Below are positions 4,804-16,202 of a DNA stretch of 64,000 nucleotides, piece after piece. Positions within the stretch are counted from its first letter, which is position 1; each line of letters opens with the position of its first letter. Below the pieces are notes generated by a model. It did no database searches and had not been told where the DNA came from. It was given only the letters and a program-made list of their open reading frames with translations. The translations under genes were made by a program, and so were the position numbers. Source of the stretch: Natrinema salinisoli (lineage in GTDB: Archaea; Halobacteriota; Halobacteria; Halobacteriales; Natrialbaceae); NCBI RefSeq assembly GCF_020405205.1, contig NZ_CP084470.1, forward strand, positions 124,001 to 188,000, given 5' to 3'.

Positions 4804-5403
4804 ATGTCACTGACTGGGGCACAAAGACCAGCGAATCGACGCGAACGGTACCGGTTGATGACTGATGCCGCTAGCCAACCATTTGCGGTCGGTTCTGTCG
4901 CCATTCCTCTTATACTCCCTATCTTGGGCTACTTATCCGCTGATGTCCGGGTCATGTTTACCGTTCACCTCTTCCTCGGTGCGTTCTGGTTCGGTACTGC
5001 GGTGCTCGGTGCGGTCGTCCTCGGCCCTGTAATGGGTAGTCTCTCCGAGGAAGCGAATGCCGAGTTCGCCGAAGGGTTCGTGCCGAAGATGAACCTTCTC
5101 ATGGAACCAGTCTCGGTCGGCGTTATCGGCTCTGGAATCGGCCTCGCCAGCATGATGGGGCTCTTGGCATCCCCGACACCGTCACTGTGGGCGGCACTTG
5201 TCCTCGCTATCGCGCTGCTCGTCCTCGGGTTTGGCCCACTCCACAAATTCACAGCCGGTATGTTCGATGAAATTGCCGCCGAAGAGACCGACCACGAACG
5301 ACTCTCTGACTTAAATAAGAAGTATGGTATGCTGAGTATGATCGAACTCCTCCTTATGGTCGCGATCGTCGTCACTATGTCTGGCCTTCGCTGGGGGTTC
5401 TAA
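4804..5403 (+). CDS. Multi-pass membrane protein of unknown function
   Basis: About 199 residues with roughly five hydrophobic segments (around residues 28-45, 52-72, 98-120, 127-147 and 175-195). An in-frame ATG at 4858 would remove the charged first 18 residues and is equally plausible. The pattern of long helices with a conserved-looking cytosolic segment (DHERLSDLNKKYGMLS) recalls small CopD/DUF2269-like membrane proteins, but no diagnostic histidine motif was identified. The gene is transcribed divergently from msrA with about 210 bp between them. Confidence 0.7.
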   Translation: MSLTGAQRPANRRERYRLMTDAASQPFAVGSVAIPLILPILGYLSADVRVMFTVHLFLGAFWFGTAVLGAVVLGPVMGSLSEEANAEFAEGFVPKMNLLMEPVSVGVIGSGIGLASMMGLLASPTPSLWAALVLAIALLVLGFGPLHKFTAGMFDEIAAEETDHERLSDLNKKYGMLSMIELLLMVAIVVTMSGLRWGF

Positions 5404-5527
5404 ACCCTCAGTTCCTGTTCGGGTACGTGGAGTACAAGGCACCCGAGAGAGGTGTGTCCGTGGATCAAATTGAGCGAACAAACGTCCTAACACTGTTCTC
5501 GGACGGATTGTACGTTCATGCACGAGG

Positions 5528-5602
5528 ACGACCGTGCAACCAGAAGAGATCGCGTCGCTGGCAGTGTTCCTCGCCTCAGACGGGGTTACGCAAGTGAGAT
5601 AT
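5528..5602 (+). pseudogene. C-terminal relic of a short-chain dehydrogenase (SDR)
   Basis: The frame RTTVQPEEIASLAVFLASDG matches the C-terminal block that classical SDR enzymes carry before the ITG motif (usually P-E-E-I-A-x-x-A-x-F-L-A-S-D). Neither the Rossmann GxxxGxG motif nor the YxxxK active site occurs upstream. After about 25 codons the frame no longer looks like protein. This is a decayed fragment between the membrane-protein gene and the next hypothetical gene. Confidence 0.55.
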
Positions 5603-5735
5603 CCCGTCCGGAAAGATATCTATCGGCGTCTTCCCCACGAAGTCAGATACCGTCTCACTCAACAAAATAGTGCGATAACGTGCGTTCCGTCGAGGAGAGA
5701 CTCACCCTTAACTCGCTCCTGCGCGAACGGGTCGT

Positions 5736-6167
5736 ATGACCGGGACATCCGAGTATCGACCGAACGGGCGGGGAGCCACCGTCACGACACCCGAAGAACT
5801 CGTCTTGCATCTGTGTCAGGCGGGTGCAAAGGGCGTCTACCTCTCGCGAACCGACGCCTTTCGCGATGGAGTGGTTCCTATCATCGCCACTTACACGCCT
5901 ACGCCCGCGGAAACCGTCCTCGACGTAGACCCGAAGACCGTCCGCGAGCTACTTCAAAGCGTATTCGAATCGATCGACAATCGGATCCGATTTCACGGCC
6001 GTGAGTGTGCCCTCGAGTGGACCGTCGAACCCGAATTCACGGGGCCGCGGACGGACCTCGTTCCGCTGTACGATCGCGACGTCGAGCAGAAATACGGTGA
6101 TGGATTCAACCTCTGGAATCTGTTTTTCGTCTACGAAGAACGTCAGGAGTCGAACAGCGACCGGTGA
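5736..6167 (+). CDS. Conserved-looking hypothetical protein
   Basis: A 143-residue protein with good haloarchaeal composition. It has a compact alpha/beta pattern and no membrane segment or signal. The centre reads ETVLDVDPKTVRELLQSVFESIDNRIRFHGRECALEW and the C-terminus is aromatic (YGDGFNLWNLFFVYEE). I do not recognise the family. The ATG at 5736 is the first good start after the SDR relic. The small gene at 6293 follows on the same strand after 125 bp but appears to have its own promoter. Confidence 0.6.
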   Translation: MTGTSEYRPNGRGATVTTPEELVLHLCQAGAKGVYLSRTDAFRDGVVPIIATYTPTPAETVLDVDPKTVRELLQSVFESIDNRIRFHGRECALEWTVEPEFTGPRTDLVPLYDRDVEQKYGDGFNLWNLFFVYEERQESNSDR

Positions 6168-7705: not shown

Positions 7706-8397
7706 ACAACCGAATCCGAAGACGAATTACTCACTGATCGCTTGGTGACGAGGATCTACCGTCGCTACTACAAAGGCGCGATAGGCGAGCTGGCGCAATG
7801 CTATCCGAACGAACAGCGCTCCCTCGAGGTCGACTGGCGAGACATCTACAAGTCCGATCCGGACGTCGCCGATGACTACCTCACGGCACCGGAGCAGATG
7901 CAGCGGTACTTCGAGGAGGCGTTCCGGATGTTCGATCCCTCGATCGACATCAATCTGCTTGCTCACGTACGCGTGGGGAATCTAGAGGAGTACACGTTCT
8001 ACCTCGGCGAGTTCTCTCGATCGGAACAACTCGGCAACTACCGGTCGATCCGTGACGAGATTACGAAGGCGACGTCAGCGCCCAGCCGCGGACGGTCGTC
8101 GAGGACATTCCCGCTCTTGCTTCGAAGCAAATGTGCAATCAGGTAGCGTTCTACCTCGTTGAGGAGACCGGGGCCGCGCTTACTGAGGCCAAGGTGACAC
8201 TTCCTCATGACAGCGTGGAATGGTCCGTGATCGAGGCGATCGACCCCGAGCAGCTGCCCACCGACGGACCGATGCAGGTCCGCGAGATAGATAGCACTGC
8301 CAGCGAGACGACGCTCCGACTGGCCTCGAGGCAGTCGGTCGGCGATGCCATCCAGGACATCCGCGACCGGACCCAGCGGAACAGCGAGCGGGTATGA
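7706..8397 (+). pseudogene. Frameshifted fragment resembling the N-terminal domain of an MCM helicase
   Basis: The first part (from TTESEDELLTDRLVTRIYRR) matches the MCM N-terminal A domain: YYKGAIGELAQCYPNEQRSL, VDWRDIYKSDPDVADDYL, and an EEAFRMFD block followed by HVRVGNL. No ATG or GTG opens it in a sensible place. Around 8080 the frame breaks: SIRDEITKATSA continues in the next frame as QPRTVVEDIPALASKQ and runs to a TGA at 8397. The AAA+ ATPase domain is missing, so this cannot be a working helicase. The last part (EAIDPEQLPTDGPMQVRE...LRLASRQSVGDAIQDI) recurs in decayed form at 15028-15184 and 11600-11670. Confidence 0.6.
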
Positions 8398-8446
8398 TTC
8401 ACTGGATCGATTCTTACTAACTCGGAATTAGGACGAAGTTGATAAT

Positions 8447-8580
8447 AAGGTCACCGAACATATTCACTGTCGCGTTCCCACAGGCGCGACACGATCCAAT
8501 CAGCTCCCCCACCTGAGTCATCCCACCTACCACGTCCGACGGCCACCACCCTGGCCCATCCGGGCGGTTTTGAGGTTTTT
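8447..8580. repeat. Direct repeat copy 1 (about 130 bp)
   Basis: The block from GAACATATTCACTGTCG through GGCCCATCCGGGC is repeated in the same orientation at 15328-15455 with roughly four in five bases identical by eye. In both places it directly precedes (on the + strand) a decayed copy of the 82-residue protein gene. Confidence 0.65.
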
Positions 8581-8608
8581 GGGATCGCAACCGACCCTCC
8601 AGCGATAG

Positions 8609-8739
8609 CTATCTGATATTGAGTGTGCCGACTGCCTCGGCGGGCCCGGCGTCGTGATCGACGAGGCGGTCGGCGGCGAACTGCCACGCTTGTTTGGCGA
8701 ATTCGGGATTCGCTTCTCCGTAGTAGACGCTGACAGCCT
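8609..8739 (-). pseudogene. Truncated copy of the 82-residue island protein
   Basis: On the minus strand this reads AVSVYYGEANPEFAKQAW then QFAADRLVDHDAGPAEAVGTL to a stop at 8609. It parallels AEFSYRWQSDSPRLAARSW and QLAVSRLAKYDIDPYEAVDAL of the intact gene at 12574-12822. The N-terminal third, including the start, is missing. Confidence 0.55.
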
Positions 8740-8810
8740 AATGCCGAAAATAAGTATAATATTTCGGTTTCGTCGATAGTACTCGAGCACAGTGTCTCGA
8801 GTCCAACTAG

Positions 8811-9128
8811 GGACGCCTGACGCCGATCGGGTCTGAACGGCTGACGTATCCGCGGACGACTGGTGACGTCTCCAAGCTCGTATCTCGTGGCGATCACATC
8901 CGACTGCTGGACGATCGCGACCAGATGGTCGTCTCGGTGACCAAACAGCAAGCACTCGACCTGCCGACGTGGACAGTGAGTTTCCGTGATTCAGACGCCG
9001 ACCTCGTCGACAGGATCCAGAGTGGTTCGGGAAGAACGAGTCTATCGCTCGCAACGGCGACGTTTACTATCGCTACGGCGAGTCTGACGGTGAGTGAAGT
9101 CCAAGTTGGGGACAGTCTTATCGACTAA
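8811..9128 (+). pseudogene. Open frame of doubtful status, possible coding remnant
   Basis: A frame open from a TAG at 8808 reads SERLTYPRTTGDVSKLVSRG, then DHIRLLDDRDQMVVSVTKQQ, and ends at 9128. The first two-thirds have a haloarchaeal protein flavour, and the last third (SGRTSLSLATATFTIATASL) does not. An ATG is available only at 8925. It may be the tail of a decayed gene. Confidence 0.25.
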
Positions 9129-9131
9129 GAG

Positions 9132-10121
9132 TTACGATTCTGGATTTGATTGACGGAATTCAAACCGTGCGCCACCTTCTGCGCTTTTAGAAAAGAAGAT
9201 CGTAAGTCCATGGTCATCAGCGATTCGACTAACAATTGTAAGCCCTATACCGTTTCCACTGTCTCCTGTCGTAAATCCATGGTCAAACACTCGTTCCTGT
9301 TCTGTTTCTGGAATACCGTCTCCCGTATCCTCAACATAGAACCCATCATCTAAGGGACCTACTCGAACGGTAACGTCGCTCCCACCATGGTCGATTGCAT
9401 TTCGAAATAGGTTCTCAAAGAGTGCTTGTAGCTGACTTCTATTTCCATTGATTTCGCCATTCTGAATTGTGAGGGTTGCTGATTGGGACTCTATGATCTC
9501 CCATGCGCTCTGAGCAACTGCTGCTAGCGAGACTGATTCGGTCTCAGTCGGTGGATTACTAGACTGGGCGAGTGCTGTAAGGTCCACAACGAGATCGTTT
9601 ATTCGGTCCAAAGCAACTTCGATTCCGTCTAAGTTAGCATCTTCGCCTGTCTCACGATATTGCTCCAATTCTCCCATCGCAATTGTCAATGGATTTTTAA
9701 GATCATGAGACACCATGCTGGCGAATTGATCCAGTCGCTTATTTTGTTGTTCTAGTTCTTTCGCTGTCTTCCGGACGTCAGTCACATCCTGTGTTACTAG
9801 AACTCCATATGGATCTTCGTCGATATCCACTGGTTTCGTCTCAATATGGTGGACCCTTTCATCATATTTGATATCAATTGAGCGAGTTGTACCGTCAATC
9901 GTGGAACGGAGCACTGGCTCAAGCTCAGTTGCTGTTTCTTCAGGAAATATCTCGTATATGTTATTACCTACTAAATCTGTAGCTTTTCTTTCCGAGAATG
10001 GGAGTGTTTTTGGACCAACTATACGATAACGGAGAGCCGAGTCAAACAGCACTAATACTCCGTTTGGGAAATTTTCCACTAGGGTTTGATGGCCGTCTTC
10101 TGGAGGATGTATCTCACTCAC
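9132..10121 (-). CDS. PAS-domain sensor histidine kinase
   Basis: A 329-residue soluble two-component kinase. A PAS sensor region spans roughly residues 10-115 (FPNGVLVLFDSALRYRIVG ... VTQDVTDVRKT) and a short coiled-coil linker lies at 117-135. The HisKA box with phospho-acceptor H139 is in FASMVSHDLKNPL. The HATPase domain carries the N box (FENLFRNAIDHG), the G1 box (VEDTGDGIP) and the G2 box (GNGIGLTIV). There are no membrane segments. No response regulator adjoins it, as is usual for haloarchaeal orphan kinases. Its codon use is more AT-rich than the flanks, as in the two other kinases of this island, which suggests a shared foreign history. It is divergent from the kinase at 10429. Confidence 0.9.
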   Translation of the reverse strand: MSEIHPPEDGHQTLVENFPNGVLVLFDSALRYRIVGPKTLPFSERKATDLVGNNIYEIFPEETATELEPVLRSTIDGTTRSIDIKYDERVHHIETKPVDIDEDPYGVLVTQDVTDVRKTAKELEQQNKRLDQFASMVSHDLKNPLTIAMGELEQYRETGEDANLDGIEVALDRINDLVVDLTALAQSSNPPTETESVSLAAVAQSAWEIIESQSATLTIQNGEINGNRSQLQALFENLFRNAIDHGGSDVTVRVGPLDDGFYVEDTGDGIPETEQERVFDHGFTTGDSGNGIGLTIVSRIADDHGLTIFFSKSAEGGARFEFRQSNPES

Positions 10122-10428
10122 AATTCAGTTATCACCACATTCTCTCTTTTAGAGCTTAAAGCTATTGGCCATATGAAAAATAGTTCTAGAAATACTACTA
10201 GACAATATCCACAAGTTCCGAAATAATCTATCTAATAGAAATTCACGATACATCATTACTGTTTCCGTTATATCACCTTTTCATGTAGGATATATGTAAT
10301 ACATTCAAATAAAAATTCTCAATCAATACCCCTCGTTTAGTTTTCGGTATTAACTGATAGGGTATTATCAATAGGTGATTATCACCTTGAATACCACCTA
10401 TATATTGCCGAATTTTCTATTAGTTTCC
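10122..10428. promoter_or_regulatory. AT-rich divergent promoter region between two kinase genes
   Basis: This very AT-rich spacer separates two divergent kinase genes. CTATATATT at 10398-10406 is centred 27 nt before the ATG at 10429, the distance expected for a TATA box of a leaderless haloarchaeal transcript. Nothing coding was seen. Confidence 0.55.
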
Positions 10429-11478
10429 ATGGGATCGTATGAAAATGTGATGTTGCCTGAATCATTTGATGATTTAGATGTTGGTATTACTCTACGCAAT
10501 CCCAACACGGGGGAGCTTATTGATATGAATGGGCAGGTAGAAGAATTATATGGGTATTCTCGACCAGATCTGCTCGAAATGAGTCTCGGAGATTACACAG
10601 CTCCCTCAACAAAATTCTCAGAAGAGGAAGCGATCCGTCGAATCCGGCTTGCTGCTAGCGGTGATTCACAGGTATTCGAATGGCGAATCGAACGGGGGAA
10701 TGGGGAACTGATTTGGGTTCAGGTCCGTCTTAATCAAACTACAATATCTGGGACCTTATGTGTCCTTGCTGAGATCCGTGATATAACCGGATATAAAGCA
10801 CGTGAACAGCGATTACGCCTTCTTAACCGCGTCGTTCGGCATAATCTCCGTAACGAGACGAATATTCTCATGGGATATGCAGACCGTCTCAAAGGTGCTG
10901 TCGAAAAGGAAACTCTTGAACAAGAAGCCGAAACAATCCTCGAGATTGCTACAGAAATTGGGACGCTGAGTGACTCGGTCCGTCAGATCGAAGAAATCGC
11001 GGAGCCTGATGCGACCCAACGAACCTCGTTGAATATAGGTGAACTCGTTGAAACAACCGTTTCTGAGATCCGATCTGAATATCCAATAGCTGAATTAACT
11101 ATCGAGACACAGGCTGATATCTGGGTGAAGGCTGACAAAGGTCTCAAGTATGCAATCGAACATGCAGTTGACAATGCAATCGTCCATAATGACCAGGAGA
11201 TCCCAATTGTTGGAGTATTCGCAACTGTGAATGAAAATACCAATCAAGCGGAGGTCAAAATTATCGATAATGGACCAACGATACCGCAAATGGAAATCGA
11301 CGTGCTCAACGATCAAGAAGAGGCAAGTAATACATATCATGGGTCTGGGCTTGGTTTGTGGGTGATGCAGTGGTGTGTCGGTTCACTTGGTGGCGAACTC
11401 ATTTTCGAAGAAAATTCTCCTCGTGGGAACGTCGTTCGTATCTTACTCCCGCAAGCCGATCCAAAAGGATCTTCGTGA
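10429..11478 (+). CDS. PAS-domain histidine kinase (HNLRN type), paralog A
   Basis: A 349-residue kinase starting MGSYENVMLPESFDDL. An upstream in-frame start at 10375 is rejected because the TATA-like box fits 10429 and the paralog at 16203-17252 has the same length and start. A PAS domain covers about 8-125 (GYSRPDLLEMSLGDYTAPST). The phospho-acceptor H138 is in NRVVRHNLRNE, the archaeal bat/bacterio-opsin-activator kinase type. HATPase blocks are present: HAVDNAIVHN, IIDNGPTIP and GSGLGLWVMQW. Without membrane segments it probably senses a cytoplasmic cue through PAS. It forms an inverted pair with paralog B, about 4.7 kb away. Confidence 0.9.
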   Translation: MGSYENVMLPESFDDLDVGITLRNPNTGELIDMNGQVEELYGYSRPDLLEMSLGDYTAPSTKFSEEEAIRRIRLAASGDSQVFEWRIERGNGELIWVQVRLNQTTISGTLCVLAEIRDITGYKAREQRLRLLNRVVRHNLRNETNILMGYADRLKGAVEKETLEQEAETILEIATEIGTLSDSVRQIEEIAEPDATQRTSLNIGELVETTVSEIRSEYPIAELTIETQADIWVKADKGLKYAIEHAVDNAIVHNDQEIPIVGVFATVNENTNQAEVKIIDNGPTIPQMEIDVLNDQEEASNTYHGSGLGLWVMQWCVGSLGGELIFEENSPRGNVVRILLPQADPKGSS

Positions 11479-12194
11479 ACTAAATTACCTTCACTCTGGT
11501 AACAGGGGACGGGAAGCGGTTGTTCGGCGACGGTGCGATTCCCGCACCCCTCCAACTCCTCGTCGACACTCTTGAACGACATTGGCTTCGGCTGTAATTA
11601 TAAATCGTCTTGCAACTGGGCAGCGGCCAGCGCCTCGAGGACGCGATCCCGCCACTGCGCGAGGAGTCGACCGCGTCTCGAAGCAGGTGTGTGCCGATCG
11701 TTCGGGAGCGTCGTAATCGGAGCGTGATCCTCCTGTCGATCAGTGAGAGGCATTGCTGGCGTTGGCCACAACTTTGGATATATTCCTACGGAGTCCAAAA
11801 AACGCCGCCAGGGGGTGACGGCGCTCATGTCCCTACGGCAGTGTGTCAACCATGGTGGTTCTGAGACCGGGCGACAATCTGGCTATTGGCTTCACGTCGG
11901 AGCGATCTCAGAGCGGCGAGGTATGGATGTCTCGTGTCGAACAGTCGATGGGTGCTGACTGGCCTTTCCCCCTCGCCATCCGATCATTAGAACACAACTG
12001 CAATCAAACTATTGGACGTTTGATAGTAATGGAGATAGAGAGTGACAATATCTGAAAATAATTGACTGTCTCTAATTCCCAGACCCTGTGGAGGCATCCG
12101 CCACTCTCTCATCTGCTTTCCGTTTCGATATATTATCGGAAGAATTGGAACTGACCCAGCTACCGCTAAGTGGGGTCGTGAACGTTCTCTTTGT
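11479..12194. other. Decayed cassette region without an intact gene
   Basis: This 716-bp stretch holds remnants. Plus-strand IVLQLGSGQRLEDAIPPLRE (about 11606-11665) is related to the open frame ending at 15184. Minus-strand MPLTDRQEDHAP (about 11720-11757) matches the beginning of the 82-residue protein. A hairpin block lies at 11801-11824, followed by sequence shared with copies at 12873 and 15696. None forms a continuous gene. Confidence 0.5.
11801..11824. repeat. Hairpin of island repeat, copy A
   Basis: CGCCG and CGGCG pair around a CAGGGGGTG-like loop. The following 160 bp (TGTCAACCATGGTGGTTCTG...) are similar to the sequence after hairpins B and C. Confidence 0.5.
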
Positions 12195-12530
12195 ATGCGA
12201 GACCAGGAGCGCAACCGCCGCGTCGTCAGATATGAGCTGGGGAGGCGACTGCTCGAACTCCGTGGAGGCGACGTTGAGGCGATGGTCGAGCAGTTAGCGC
12301 GAGGGTTCGTCGATGGAGATCTCGTCGCCCTTCGCGATCAGGGTCAGGAGGCGCTGGTCTACGATCGAGTCCGAACATCGATTGTTGACGGTCGGTTGGA
12401 CGTCTTCGGCATCTCTCGCGGTGGATCAGTATCGCGGCAGGAGACAGGGATCTGGCGCGGCGATGATCTTGAAGGCTGGCTCGAGGTACATCGTGGTGAA
12501 CTGGACTGGGTGCATCACGAATGGCGGTAA
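12195..12530 (+). CDS. Hypothetical protein with a decayed paralog nearby
   Basis: A 111-residue acidic protein, MRDQERNRRVVRYELGRRLL..., with an N-terminal basic helix. Its second half (DLVALRDQGQEALVYDRVRT ... GDDLEGWLEVHRGELDWVHH) is repeated almost word for word in the pseudogene at 14469-14720, which shows the gene is real and was duplicated locally. There is no signal, membrane segment or recognised family motif. It is convergent with the small gene at 12574-12822 after 43 bp, and both belong to the repeat-rich island between the two inverted kinases. Confidence 0.6.
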   Translation: MRDQERNRRVVRYELGRRLLELRGGDVEAMVEQLARGFVDGDLVALRDQGQEALVYDRVRTSIVDGRLDVFGISRGGSVSRQETGIWRGDDLEGWLEVHRGELDWVHHEWR

Positions 12531-12573
12531 AGTCCTGATAGAATTGTCAGTGCAAGACTAGTAAGTCTTAGAT

Positions 12574-12822
12574 TCACCGGCGAATTGGTGTGTCTACCGT
12601 CTTGGCGGGTCCTATTTCAAATTCGGCAATAGATTTCCGTTTATCGTCAGCTCTGAGTGCATCGACCGCTTCATAGGGATCAATATCATACTTTGCAAGG
12701 CGGCTGACCGCGAGTTGCCAGGATCGCGCAGCCAGACGTGGACTATCACTCTGCCATCGGTATGAAAATTCGGCTAAGGCGACGGCAGTGAGGAGATCAT
12801 CGCGATGCTGGTCAGTGAACAT
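12574..12822 (-). CDS. 82-residue island protein (only intact copy of a local family)
   Basis: Starts MFTDQHRDDLLTAVALAEFS and continues YRWQSDSPRLAARSWQLAVS, RLAKYDIDPYEAVDALRA. It appears all-helical and soluble, with no known domain recognised. Three damaged relatives lie nearby: 8609-8739 (5' truncated), 15473-15649 (two TAG stops replacing tryptophans) and a bare start at about 11720-11757. A shared hairpin block sits upstream of the start (12873-12897). The pattern suggests a repeatedly copied cassette with one surviving member. Confidence 0.6.
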   Translation of the reverse strand: MFTDQHRDDLLTAVALAEFSYRWQSDSPRLAARSWQLAVSRLAKYDIDPYEAVDALRADDKRKSIAEFEIGPAKTVDTPIRR

Positions 12823-12872
12823 TATCTCTGACTATTTGTATGAATAGTGATAAAGTCATGGTACTGTACAGA

Positions 12873-12897
12873 AACGCTGACAGGGGGTGCCAGCGTT
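12873..12897. repeat. Hairpin of island repeat, copy B
   Basis: AACGCTG (12873-12879) pairs with CAGCGTT (12891-12897) around ACAGGGGGTGC. Compared with copies A and C the arms differ in sequence yet still pair, while the G-rich loop is kept. It lies 50 bp before the start of the 82-residue gene. Confidence 0.55.
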
Positions 12898-13066
12898 GGT
12901 TCCCCCTGTCAATGGGTGTTTGACTGGGGGTGGTGGTCCGGAATCGAGTGACAATATGGCAATTGGCCTCGGTGGACCAATTCGAGGTGGCGAGTTCTGG
13001 TGATGTCTCGGAGTGGATCAGATAGAATAGATCTCACTGTTTTAGTTTAGATGAGTGTTTGTAGAC

Positions 13067-13291
13067 TCACGTATCAATAATCACGTTGCCATTCTTAACC
13101 GTCACCTTGTATCCGCAATAGGTGAAATGAATCGTCGCGTGCGATGTTGCGACCCTCTCGAGTGCATCGGTATCGATCGAGTCGTGTAATGGCGGAAGTT
13201 CTGTGTAATCACAGTTCTCCAAGTCAGATACTTCTTTAATAATCTCGTGTATTACTGAGTTTTCACGTATTTGACTGCCGCCTTGCCCCAT
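13067..13291 (-). CDS. HalOD1-type output domain protein
   Basis: A 74-residue protein that is essentially one Halobacterial Output Domain 1. The opening helix HEIIKEVSDLENCDY, the conserved TELPPLHDSIDTDAL block and the closing strands (IHFTYCGYKVTVKNGNVIID) fit the family pattern, in which a conserved LPPL and ID-DAL precede a beta hairpin ending in V-I. Free-standing HalOD1 proteins are common in haloarchaea and are thought to act in signal output, but the mechanism is unknown. Its position among PAS kinases and a DUF7344-like regulator fits a signalling island. Start ATG at 13291. Confidence 0.75.
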   Translation of the reverse strand: MGQGGSQIRENSVIHEIIKEVSDLENCDYTELPPLHDSIDTDALERVATSHATIHFTYCGYKVTVKNGNVIIDT

Positions 13292-13366
13292 ATTTGATCC
13301 ATAGTATGGTCCTATATAAACCTGTGTGACATGATGTCATTCCCGCCACCTAATGTATAAAATTAA

Positions 13367-13702
13367 TTAATCGAATCTTTTGACTGTCTGATACAATTCC
13401 TCGATGCGTGGATCGCCACAGTATCGGACTTCGAGATTGTGCGTATCATACTCTAAAACGCCAGCATCAGTGAGCTTCGGGAGATGGACATGGTGCACCG
13501 TGGCCGAAACAGAATCGTGACCTGGTCGCTCCCCCGTTGCAGCTGCTTCCTCGTCGATGATCTCGGTGACGAGTTCATCAATCGATGCACGGTCCCGATT
13601 TGAGTCACAAAAGAACCTCAGAAGTACACGCCGCTGTCGATTTGCCAGTAGCTCAAGGCACGTGTCAACGGAAAGCTCGTCGCTATCAGGCCCACTATCC
13701 AT
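13367..13702 (-). CDS. Winged-helix DUF7344-like regulator
   Basis: About 111 residues from the ATG at 13702; an in-frame start at 13729 would add nine residues. The body LSVDTCLELLANRQRRVLLR, VSATVHHVHLPKLTDAGVLE and YCGDPRIEELYQTV matches the haloarchaeal winged-helix family. In it a 'cl-LLan-RRR-vL' helix leads into a wing ending with 'HLPkLedaGvi-yd'. It is probably DNA-binding, with an unknown target. It lies in the same orientation as the HalOD1 gene (76 bp apart) and could be co-regulated. Confidence 0.75.
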   Translation of the reverse strand: MDSGPDSDELSVDTCLELLANRQRRVLLRFFCDSNRDRASIDELVTEIIDEEAAATGERPGHDSVSATVHHVHLPKLTDAGVLEYDTHNLEVRYCGDPRIEELYQTVKRFD

Positions 13703-13778
13703 AGTTGAAATCGTGTTACTACATAGCACAGGTATTGTTGTAGTGTTTGGGGTTGGCGCATATGACGTTTTATTCCGT

Positions 13779-14186
13779 CTAATAGCCTGTTAGCCCCGCC
13801 AGGAGGCTGAAAAGGAGATACTGAAAAAGAGCTCCAAAGATGAGTGAACCAATCGCAAGCGGAATGAGCAACAGAGACCTGCTCATTGATCGATTTGCGG
13901 GAGCGTGTACGATTCCCTTTTCGTCGACAGTACCGATCGACTCGAGAAGAAGCCATCCTGCAACGAAGAGTCCTATTGGGGGAACAGTGAGTAGAAGAAG
14001 TCCTGTTGTAATCCATACCCAAGTTCCGACATCGTCAGTGGACAGTACATAATTACGAAAAAGATCTGTATTGCGGTTCAGGCGATTTGGTTCTCCGTCA
14101 GTACTATCAGTAGAGCCTAGCCCATCGTCGCTACAAGATTCAGTAGAAACGGATGGATCTGAACCATCCTCCCGGAAATTCCCCAT
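13779..14186 (-). CDS. Small membrane protein with an acidic N-terminal tail
   Basis: 135 residues. A hydrophilic Ser/Asp-rich N-terminus (1-50) is followed by two or three membrane helices (about 57-80 and 105-133). A short loop between them contains APANRSMSRS. The final residues LAGLTGY end at the membrane. No family was recognised. It sits upstream of the DUF7344-like regulator in the same orientation, 76 bp from it. Confidence 0.6.
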   Translation of the reverse strand: MGNFREDGSDPSVSTESCSDDGLGSTDSTDGEPNRLNRNTDLFRNYVLSTDDVGTWVWITTGLLLLTVPPIGLFVAGWLLLESIGTVDEKGIVHAPANRSMSRSLLLIPLAIGSLIFGALFQYLLFSLLAGLTGY

Positions 14187-14468
14187 GGTTATGAACTTGT
14201 TGTATGTACTAAAAAGTTTTCGCCTAACGGACCTCTAATCCTCATTTTGATCGGTGGCATCAGTGAGCACGAGAAACTACCTACAGAATTTGGTACTACC
14301 CACTCAACAGTTGGTGCTGGCGTATCCCTGCACAGGAGTCTACCGGACAATAGTGTTGGTCCTATCTGGCCCCTCCTACCAGAAGCTCCTGCACTTCATA
14401 ATCAGATGTGTCAATAGGGCCACCGAAGGCGACCCCACCGGGTCGTTTAATTTTTTGCCTCAAGCCGT

Positions 14469-14720
14469 TTTAGAATTGGCCTTGGCTGTGCCGACATCGT
14501 CACTATCCGCGATCGGGGTCAGGAGGCGCTGGTCAATGATCCAGTCCGAACATCGATCTTTGAGGGTCGGTTGGACATCTTCCGAATCCATCGCGATGGA
14601 TCAGTATCGCGGCAGCAGACTGGTGTCTGGCACGGCGATGATCTCGAAGGCCGGCTCGAGGCACATCGTGGTGACTTGGATTGGTTGCATCACGAGTGGC
14701 TATCAGTTTGGAGTATCTAG
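14469..14720 (+). pseudogene. 5'-truncated copy of the 12195 gene
   Basis: The frame reads FRIGLGCADIVTIRDRGQEA, LVNDPVRTSIFEGRLDIF and GDDLEGRLEAHRGDLDWLHH and ends at TAG 14720 after SVWSI. It parallels DLVALRDQGQEALVYDRVRT onward of the 12195 protein over about 70 residues. The first third of the gene, with its start, is absent. Confidence 0.6.
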
Positions 14721-14893
14721 GGCGTCTGCTCAGGGACGATGCCAGCGCCCTGGAGAAGTGGGCGAAACAGAAAGTGAAAGAGCACTGGATCGACCAAGGG
14801 AAGTCCAAAGAAGAAGCCGAAGAGAAAGCTACCCGATGGGAGAACAACTACGGAGAAGCTTGGGATGCAAATTCGAGTGACAAAACGGTGTAG
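14681..14893 (+). CDS. Short hypothetical frame, possibly a gene fragment
   Basis: From about codon 10 it reads SLEYLGRLLRDDASALEKWA then KQKVKEHWIDQGKSKEEAEE, a charged helical segment with clear protein character that ends at TAG 14893. The nominal start overlaps the preceding pseudogene and the first residues are unconvincing. It may be the C-terminal remnant of a larger gene truncated by the same event. No family was recognised. Confidence 0.35.
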   Translation: MVASRVAISLEYLGRLLRDDASALEKWAKQKVKEHWIDQGKSKEEAEEKATRWENNYGEAWDANSSDKTV

Positions 14894-14908
14894 GTTGATC
14901 CCTCCAAA

Positions 14909-15184
14909 ATGCTACTCGTCCAGCATCACGTCTTTCGCCTTCTGAATTTGGAGATGCTCCTCTCGATCGGGATAGTCGCTGTCGGGGTGAACATCTGCCG
15001 ACTTCCGACGGGTGGCCGTGGTGACGATGTCGGGTTCAATCTAACCGAGACGGTCGATCTCGAGGAGTTGCCCGTCGGTCGCCCACTCCGAGCCCGCGAG
15101 AGATACGACTCGCCGGAGAAGATCGTGCTCAAACTGAGCAGTGCCCAGCGCCTCGAGGATGTGATTCGGGCACTGAGCGAGTAG
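14909..15184 (+). pseudogene. Remnant related to the tail of the MCM-like pseudogene
   Basis: The convincing part starts near 15028: FNLTETVDLEELPVGRPLRA then RERYDSPEKIVLKLSSAQRL and EDVIRALSE. The same pattern is seen at 8131-8397 (EAIDPEQLPTDGPMQVRE ... LRLASRQSVGDAIQDI) and in a fragment near 11606. The residues before 15028 look like read-through. It is probably a short decayed copy. Confidence 0.35.
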
Positions 15185-15327
15185 GTCAGCCGCGTCTCGC
15201 GGCAGGTGTGACCCCATCTTCAGATATTCGTGACCGGACCTCGAGGAACGCCCGATTGGGTGTGATACAAAAGGCCAAGGGGACGATTCTGGCTGACTGA
15301 TAATCGGAGGCGCATTGATAACCTTCG

Positions 15328-15455
15328 AGGCGAACATATTCACTGTCGTGCTCCCCGGCGCGACACAGATCCAATCAGCTCCCCAACCGAGGCATCCGCC
15401 TATCACGCCCGACGGCCATCACCGTGGCCCATCCGGGCAATTTTGAGACCACAAC
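15328..15455. repeat. Direct repeat copy 2 (about 130 bp)
   Basis: Matches 8447-8580 (GAACATATTCACTGTCG ... GGCCCATCCGGGC) in the same orientation and again precedes a decayed copy of the 82-residue gene. Confidence 0.65.
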
Positions 15456-15472
15456 CTGTCCTTGAGTGATAG

Positions 15473-15649
15473 CTATCCCATTTCGAGTGCATCGACGGCC
15501 TCCGCGGAACCGACGTCGTGATTAATGAGGTGGTTGGCGGCCAGCTGCTACGCCTATTCGGCGAGCTCGGGATCAGCGGTTTCGTAGTGGACGCTGAACT
15601 CGGACAGTGCGACGGCGATTAGTAGGTCCTCCTGTCGATTGGTGAGCAT
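15473..15649 (-). pseudogene. Copy of the 82-residue island protein inactivated by two nonsense codons
   Basis: The minus strand reads MLTNRQEDLLIAVALSEFSV then HYETADPELAE, TAG, A, TAG, QLAANHLINHDVGSAEAVDA. Both TAG codons sit where related copies have tryptophan or an adjacent residue (AARSWQLA, AKQAWQFA), consistent with simple substitutions. Length and ends match the intact gene at 12574-12822. Confidence 0.65.
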
Positions 15650-15695
15650 CAACAGTGTTCGCCGCGGCTTCGCATACAAACTGCGTAGTCGAGAA

Positions 15696-15720
15696 AACGC
15701 CAGCAGGGGGCGCTGGCGTT
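15696..15720. repeat. Hairpin of island repeat, copy C
   Basis: AACGCCAGC and GCTGGCGTT form a perfect 9-bp stem around AGGGGGC. Downstream similarity to copies A and B continues to about 15885. It lies 46 bp upstream of the start of the neighbouring pseudogene copy. Confidence 0.55.
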
Positions 15721-16202
15721 AATCGCCTCTGACAATGGGTGTCAATCGTGGTGGTGGTTCTGAGATCGAGTGATAATATGGCTATTGCTTCACGCAGAGC
15801 GATCTCAGAGCAGCGAGGTTGTATGTCCTGTGTCGAACAGCTGTGGGTGCCGACTGGTCTTCCCCCCTCGCCATTTGAAGCTTAGGAGACTTTCATCATC
15901 AACCTATCGGCCGTTTTCAGCCGTTTAATACCAGTAGGAACAGCGTTTAGTTTCTTTTCGGGCGAAACAATATGGGACAACTCAAGAATTGAAATGGAGC
16001 AAACCTTCAAATCTCATGCGGACGTAGTGATTGATGTCCGGGCCGATAACTCACATCCATGAGGTTATCTCCTCAACCCTCTCATCTTCCCGGACAATTT
16101 CACTTCCTGGCTTAGTCAGTGGTCTTCAGCTATGGAACTGGCATACTATACGGGCAGAGGTCACAGTCCTACGAGGAGGACATCCTCGAGATGAAGCGAC
16201 TA
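15721..16202. other. Repeat tail and non-coding spacer
   Basis: The first 165 bp continue the island repeat (GTCAATCGTGGTGGTGGTTC...). The remainder is AT-rich intergenic sequence up to the 3' end of kinase paralog B. No gene is supported. Confidence 0.45.

Follow-up and report, generated by a model that had tools for sequence, protein, structure and literature searches.

The window analysed here, a 64,000-nucleotide stretch of Natrinema salinisoli DNA (G000:C2:124001-188000, from a haloarchaeal genome of 4.7 Mb in three contigs), contains between 7.7 and 16 kb a patchwork of gene wrecks and small plasmid-like genes, in which the initial annotation had described a repeatedly copied cassette for an 82-residue protein. 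The repeated unit was recovered in our analysis, but its definition by the protein proved too narrow, as the recurrent core consists of a structured RNA, designated RNA-A, and a second RNA on the opposite strand, designated RNA-B. We tentatively regard RNA-A, RNA-B, the three-helix microprotein predicted from the small open reading frame (ORF) and palindrome-binding regulators as a previously unknown conflict or addiction module that may be exchanged between viruses or plasmids and their hosts.

Conserved structure of RNA-A and RNA-B

Alignment of the regions upstream of many ORF copies revealed a conserved, unannotated block of ~185 nt, RNA-A, with its own promoter-like box and a terminator-like hairpin. 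Three copies of this larger shared element, of which the initial annotation made no mention, are present upstream of ORFs in the window (Table 1). Its helix P1 is formed by GGCGAGG and CCTCGCC, with the variants GACGAGG/CCTCGTC and AGCGAGA/TCTCGCT; P2 is formed by the strands GAGATCGG and CCGATCTC, and P3 is the terminator-like hairpin, which is followed by a run of T's. Pairing was maintained in 96.5% of cells across 34 sequences with two-sided changes in 10 of 20 pairs, and neither any of 500 shuffles nor any register slide came near the observed covariation value. As the structure had been derived from the same alignment, the count was repeated on 39 further copies, taken from different loci and in part from other genera, and again none of 500 shuffles reached the value observed for P1, P2 or P3. 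The case for RNA-A rests on this covariation; folded as single sequences, the window copy showed modest stability (z = -1.3) and a viral copy a better value (z = -2.7). Wherever it could be recognised, a promoter-like GGCCAAYARNGTTWAT box preceded the RNA-A model by ~36 nt. A coding function of RNA-A was considered and ruled out, since the lengths of the copies (160-216 nt) are of every residue modulo 3 and the copies have no open frame in common.

At many loci RNA-B is found 3' of the ORF, encoded on the other strand and convergent with it. RNA-B comprises a nearly invariant GTCGCG...CGCGAC hairpin and a second one, CCGCCCGG...CCGGGCGG, that runs into a stretch of T's; a palindrome and a TTGATA box precede the element. 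From this promoter box and the T-run we infer the direction in which RNA-B is read. Pairing was maintained in 94.5% of cells, and two-sided changes were few because the element is highly conserved. In the window, RNA-B corresponds to a 130-bp direct repeat that had been reported to precede two of the ORFs. The repeat is real, the pieces of 8455-8574 and 15331-15447 being 87-92% identical, but it does not precede the ORFs: as these are encoded on the minus strand, it lies downstream of them and constitutes a separate plus-strand element.

A search of 12 loci against Rfam 15 returned no match at gathering score for either RNA, the only matches being chance-level ones to small nucleolar and long non-coding RNAs (E 0.2-5), and no description of either was found in the open-licence literature. 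RNA-A and RNA-B appear to be new as RNA families. In public plasmid records, RNA-A is either unannotated or overlaid by hypothetical genes.

Organization, distribution and movement of the module

In the complete arrangement, RNA-A is followed 46-105 bp downstream by the microprotein ORF on the same strand and then by RNA-B, convergent on the opposite strand. Neighbourhoods were surveyed in 23 genomes of the genus, in which the matches listed comprised 125 RNA-A, 53 RNA-B and 74 ORFs, the last number being a lower bound from a single-sequence search. Among these listed matches, RNA-A was located 46-105 bp upstream of 25 of the 74 ORFs and a convergent RNA-B adjoined 20, while 22 of the 53 RNA-B had RNA-A within 600 bp, compared with 0.13 expected. 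All 26 pairs of the two RNAs closer than 600 bp were on opposite strands (15 convergent, 11 divergent). The spacing between RNA-A and the ORF recurs beyond the genus, with RNA-A at 5370-5568 and the ORF at 5615-5788 in G179:C52, and RNA-A at 2618458-2618654 and the ORF at 2618218-2618394 in G224:C1.

Palindromes were found at fixed positions before both RNAs. In 13 genomes, GGTAACAN4TGTTACC occurred in exact form six times, in every case 46-47 bp upstream of RNA-A, and CGATTCCN9GGAATCG occurred eight times, seven of these 24-25 bp upstream of RNA-B; reversed-control versions of the palindromes gave no matches. Other RNA-A copies, including those of the window, bear other upstream sequences, so that at least three upstream classes exist. 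A small zinc-finger-like ORF (C..C..H..H, with weak similarity to a Pfam zinc finger) lies just upstream of 13 of 93 RNA-A copies, and its stop is 86-94 nt from RNA-A in nearly all of them. These arrangements bear on the view that the structures serve the small gene as promoter and terminator and that no independent RNA gene exists, which would agree with the terminator-like hairpin of RNA-A lying just before the ORF promoter and that of RNA-B facing the ORF. We consider this very improbable, since both RNAs also occur far from ORFs and each possesses, at a fixed distance, a promoter-like box and a palindrome of its own, and since ORFs that lack RNA-A retain their own TATA-like box.

RNA-A was detected in all 23 Natrinema-genus genomes searched, with 2-16 matches each (10 in the genome of the window), on chromosomes, on plasmids and in two (pro)viral genomes, and RNA-B in 22 of the 23. 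In a class-wide sample, RNA-A was found in 31 of 292 genomes and 8 of 77 genera, nearly all of the same family, and RNA-B in 5 of 77 genera. Searching other haloarchaea for the ORF family revealed it in 87 of 125 genomes and 22 of 29 genera of the family, with a few members outside. The haloarchaeal tailed virus HJTV-4, whose host is Natrinema thermotolerans, carries two RNA-A in an unannotated stretch before ORF44, which is itself a member of the microprotein ORF family. On the IMG/VR contig UViG_2639762614 there are three RNA-A and, encoded on the other strand, a single RNA-B, together with three ORF leaders; the next RNA unit cuts short two of the three ORFs. This contig was the only otherwise supported one among the 37 contigs recovered when IMG/VR was scanned with a 17-base RNA-A motif, a number near chance expectation. 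Recombination of the repeats with one another would explain these truncations as well as a chimeric RNA-A copy in the window (12870-13041).

In the genome G018, three copies at different sites share just ~0.75-1.0 kb spanning the cassette; RNA-B is present in two of them and missing from one, and their ends differ. No terminal repeats were seen in the three aligned copies, and the cassette encodes no transposase. The variable ends and the lack of terminal repeats are therefore better explained by homologous recombination, or by passive carriage on plasmids and viruses, than by transposition. The earlier description of an amplified, decaying and mobile family was borne out by up to 12 ORF matches per genome in the profile search, by the occurrence on plasmids, in HJTV-4 and in the IMG/VR contig, by in-frame stops in many copies and by the cassette-only homology. 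The same dispersal in unrelated contexts, the restriction of homology to the cassette, the tandem and nested arrays and recombined copies such as the chimeric one could also be expected of a non-autonomous selfish element, in which the RNAs and the ORF are cargo or sequence features moved by an outside recombinase. This seems unlikely to us, because the ends vary between copies with no terminal repeats seen, and because the intact ORF copies are under purifying selection (median ratio of nonsynonymous to synonymous substitution rates 0.27) and RNA-A carries compensatory changes, so that the contents themselves are selected. IS200/605-type and other non-autonomous elements with structured ends resemble the module in their dispersed, palindrome-rich and degenerate copies, whereas the module has no transposase or fixed ends, possesses its own promoters and contains an intact gene under selection.

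The microprotein family and its copies in the window

AlphaFold2 gave a confident model of the microprotein as a three-helix bundle without any strand (core pLDDT about 97). In most ORF copies a TATA-like box lies ~31 nt before the ATG, a distance that suggests leaderless mRNAs; the intact ORF of the window is probably leaderless as well. The microprotein matched no Pfam or NCBIfam family, and none of 66 family members matched a PADLOC model, which leaves the earlier suggestion of an immunity-like cassette without direct support. Six members were matched by phrog_25699, of unknown function (best E 1.7e-8), whereas characterised families gave no match and no homologue of known function was found. 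Searches for similar folds in the PDB and among viral proteins yielded weak helical similarities at most, including the archaeal RNase P protein Ph1601p, a look-alike (best Z 5.9) that was not counted as evidence. Relatives of the protein are encoded on Natrinema plasmids and in N. salsiterrestre.

The family falls into two subfamilies, A with 82 aa (...AEFSYRWQ...) and B with ~59 aa (...TEFSVHYE...). The intact window gene had been credited with three damaged relatives, and their relatedness exceeds chance: the family profile matched the wrecks at 15473-15649 and 8609-8739 with E values of 9.3e-29 and 5.3e-14, respectively, and an additional wreck in the same genome but outside the window (contig C3:94572) with 3.0e-16. 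The single 82-aa sequence matched 15473-15649 in its own genome with E=1.1e-8 and 45% identity, and 8609-8739 weakly, in the C-terminal half (E=0.026). As the wrecks belong to the shorter subfamily B and the intact copy to A, however, they are cousins and not simply decayed copies of the 82-aa gene. The third relative was correctly recognised as a start only.

Table 1. Components of the module and associated features in the window
Feature	Position	Strand	Remarks
Intact ORF, 82 aa, subfamily A	12574-12822	minus	predicted three-helix microprotein; promoter-like box just 5' of ATG
ORF wreck of the ~59-aa type (subfamily B), with two TAG codons in frame	15473-15649	minus	
ORF wreck, subfamily B, without N-terminal part	8609-8739	minus	
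Start-only ORF remnant	11720-11757	minus	ATG 11751-11753, reads MPLTDRQED
RNA-A, full length (P1, P2, P3 terminator-like hairpin)	11798-11980	minus	153 bits, E 2e-40
RNA-A, 5'-truncated, upstream of intact ORF	12870-13041	minus	87.8 bits
RNA-A, full length, upstream of broken ORF 15473-15649	15693-15875	minus	119 bits
RNA-B, first copy of 130-bp repeat	8454-8576	plus	103.7 bits
RNA-B, second copy of 130-bp repeat	15330-15449	plus	98.4 bits; fold z = -3.0
RNA-B upstream region	8408-8447	plus	degenerate palindrome CGATTC..GAATT at 8408-8431; TTGATAAT box at 8440-8447
RNA-B upstream palindrome, degenerate (CGATTC..AATCG)	15284-15306	plus	exact form found in relatives
111-aa ORF, divergent from RNA-A 11798-11980, convergent with intact ORF	12195-12530	plus	
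111-aa gene fragment	14497-14700	plus	DNA 85% identical to 12322-12525

In the truncated RNA-A copy upstream of the intact ORF, the 3' end of a HalOD1 gene stands in place of the promoter and the 5' side of P1; this small HalOD1/DdfA-like gene, to which the RNA is fused, is located at 13067-13291 on the minus strand. The 111-aa ORF has an 86% identical copy at C3:95178-95510, adjoining another cassette, and its family, oriented divergently to RNA-A at three or more loci, matched nothing in Pfam or NCBIfam; AlphaFold2 gave a fairly confident alpha/beta fold without a clear match in the PDB. At 7742-8397 on the plus strand lies what looks like an MCM-type helicase gene disrupted by a frameshift. 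Contig C3 has a similar 3' end ahead of RNA-B, which suggests the copying of one ancestral block.

Some ORF copies are preceded by other sequences. Those of L018, L065, L067, L070, L071, L078 and L080, which lack RNA-A and come mostly from the genome of Natrinema sp. SYSU A 869, have in common another upstream repeat rich in hairpins (..GGAAGCCACGTCTCGGGTG..CGCATGCCCCCGCGAC..GCGCGGCTTCC), which may be an IS200/605-type end, and in L015, L016, L034, L076 and L094 a small cysteine-rich ORF (CRVPTCTRLAREQAGYGRFCSKRC) takes the place of RNA-A. Between the TATA-like box and the ATG of most subfamily B leaders, for example before position 1492 in L079, the sequence GCCGCGGCCAACGCCGGCG is strongly conserved; it recalls the 530 loop of 16S rRNA (GCCGCGGTAACACCGGC).

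Candidate functions and related systems

As a leading model, held with some reserve, the module would serve plasmids and proviruses as an RNA-guarded addiction or superinfection device. RNA-centred and accessory, it would spread through the chromosomes, plasmids and proviruses of Natrialbaceae; RNA-A and RNA-B would be stable transcripts switched at the palindromes by dedicated regulators, the microprotein would be made from its own leaderless promoter, and RNA-A would restrain it by protein-RNA contact and not by base pairing. Addiction or superinfection behaviour would explain the amplification, the frequent death of the ORF and the survival of orphan RNA-A genes.

Two candidate switches between RNA-A and the ORF were examined and rejected. 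The terminator strand of RNA-A and the conserved ORF leader (AACGCCGGC) are complementary by eye, but cognate pairs did not pair better than non-cognate ones (p = 0.22), and pairing of the RNA-A GAGACAU loop with the start codon was discarded because a sizeable fraction of copies does not keep the U.

Several observations weigh against the addiction model. Antisense pairing of RNA-A with RNA-B was worse than in shuffled sequences (mean z +0.9), and that of RNA-A with the ORF mRNA did not differ from shuffles (mean z 0.0). No toxin fold could be recognised in the microprotein by family, PADLOC or fold searches. Of the 74 ORFs among the matches listed for the genus, 38 lie beside neither RNA, and ORFs are also present in genera in which no RNA-A was detected, so that the protein evidently needs no adjacent RNA-A. 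Conversely, RNA-A mostly occurs without an ORF in its vicinity and its chromosomal copies adjoin unrelated genes; it is thus not an appendix of the ORF.

It is almost as likely that RNA-A, together with RNA-B, represents a multi-copy family of trans-acting regulatory small RNAs of Natrialbaceae, whose copies would respond to different inputs through differing upstream operators, the ORF being a frequent neighbour and not a functional partner. The presence of several, mostly ORF-less RNA-A copies in every genome of the genus, the conservation of chromosomal copies beside unrelated genes, the at least three upstream classes and the wider spread of the ORF family all favour such a stand-alone role, whereas the fixed RNA-A-ORF spacing of 46-61 nt in other genera (e.g. 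G179, G224) and the joint occurrence of RNA-A, RNA-B and the ORF on a virus point to a functional link. Bacteria possess multi-copy families of trans-acting small RNAs, such as Qrr and LhrC, in which a genome likewise holds several sibling RNAs that have separate promoters and terminators and differ in their upstream regulatory sequences. RNA-A differs from these in being archaeal, borne by plasmids and viruses and physically linked to another RNA and to a microprotein gene, and no conserved antisense partner was found for it.

For the addiction model, the closest anatomical parallel is offered by type III toxin-antitoxin systems (ToxIN, CptIN, TenpIN, AbiF-like), in which a structured RNA gene, sometimes in tandem, also immediately precedes the gene for a small protein, the two being separated by a terminator-like hairpin, and which are likewise carried by plasmids and viruses. 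The frequent death of the ORF on mobile DNA adds to this likeness. In the present module, however, the protein is of 59-82 aa with a predicted three-helical fold and has its own promoter-like box, RNA-A is ~185 nt long with three supported helices in place of short repeats, a second RNA is encoded on the other strand, and RNA-A mostly occurs without the protein. By its size, its three-helix model and the lack of any family match, the microprotein is not an endoribonuclease of the ToxN/AbiQ type, and for this reason we do not assign the module to type III. CreTA (PMC8501985) is another RNA-based module of haloarchaea, in which a CRISPR-regulated RNA toxin is tied to type I CRISPR-Cas and a repeat-like RNA; by comparison, RNA-A and RNA-B are larger, and the annotated loci inspected here contained no Cas gene.

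Among archaea, little is known of large structured RNAs that occur in multiple copies and have dedicated operators. Haloarchaeal virology gains a small, testable RNA-protein module together with a ready covariance model, and the module could reveal new mutual control among proviruses, plasmids and their hosts.

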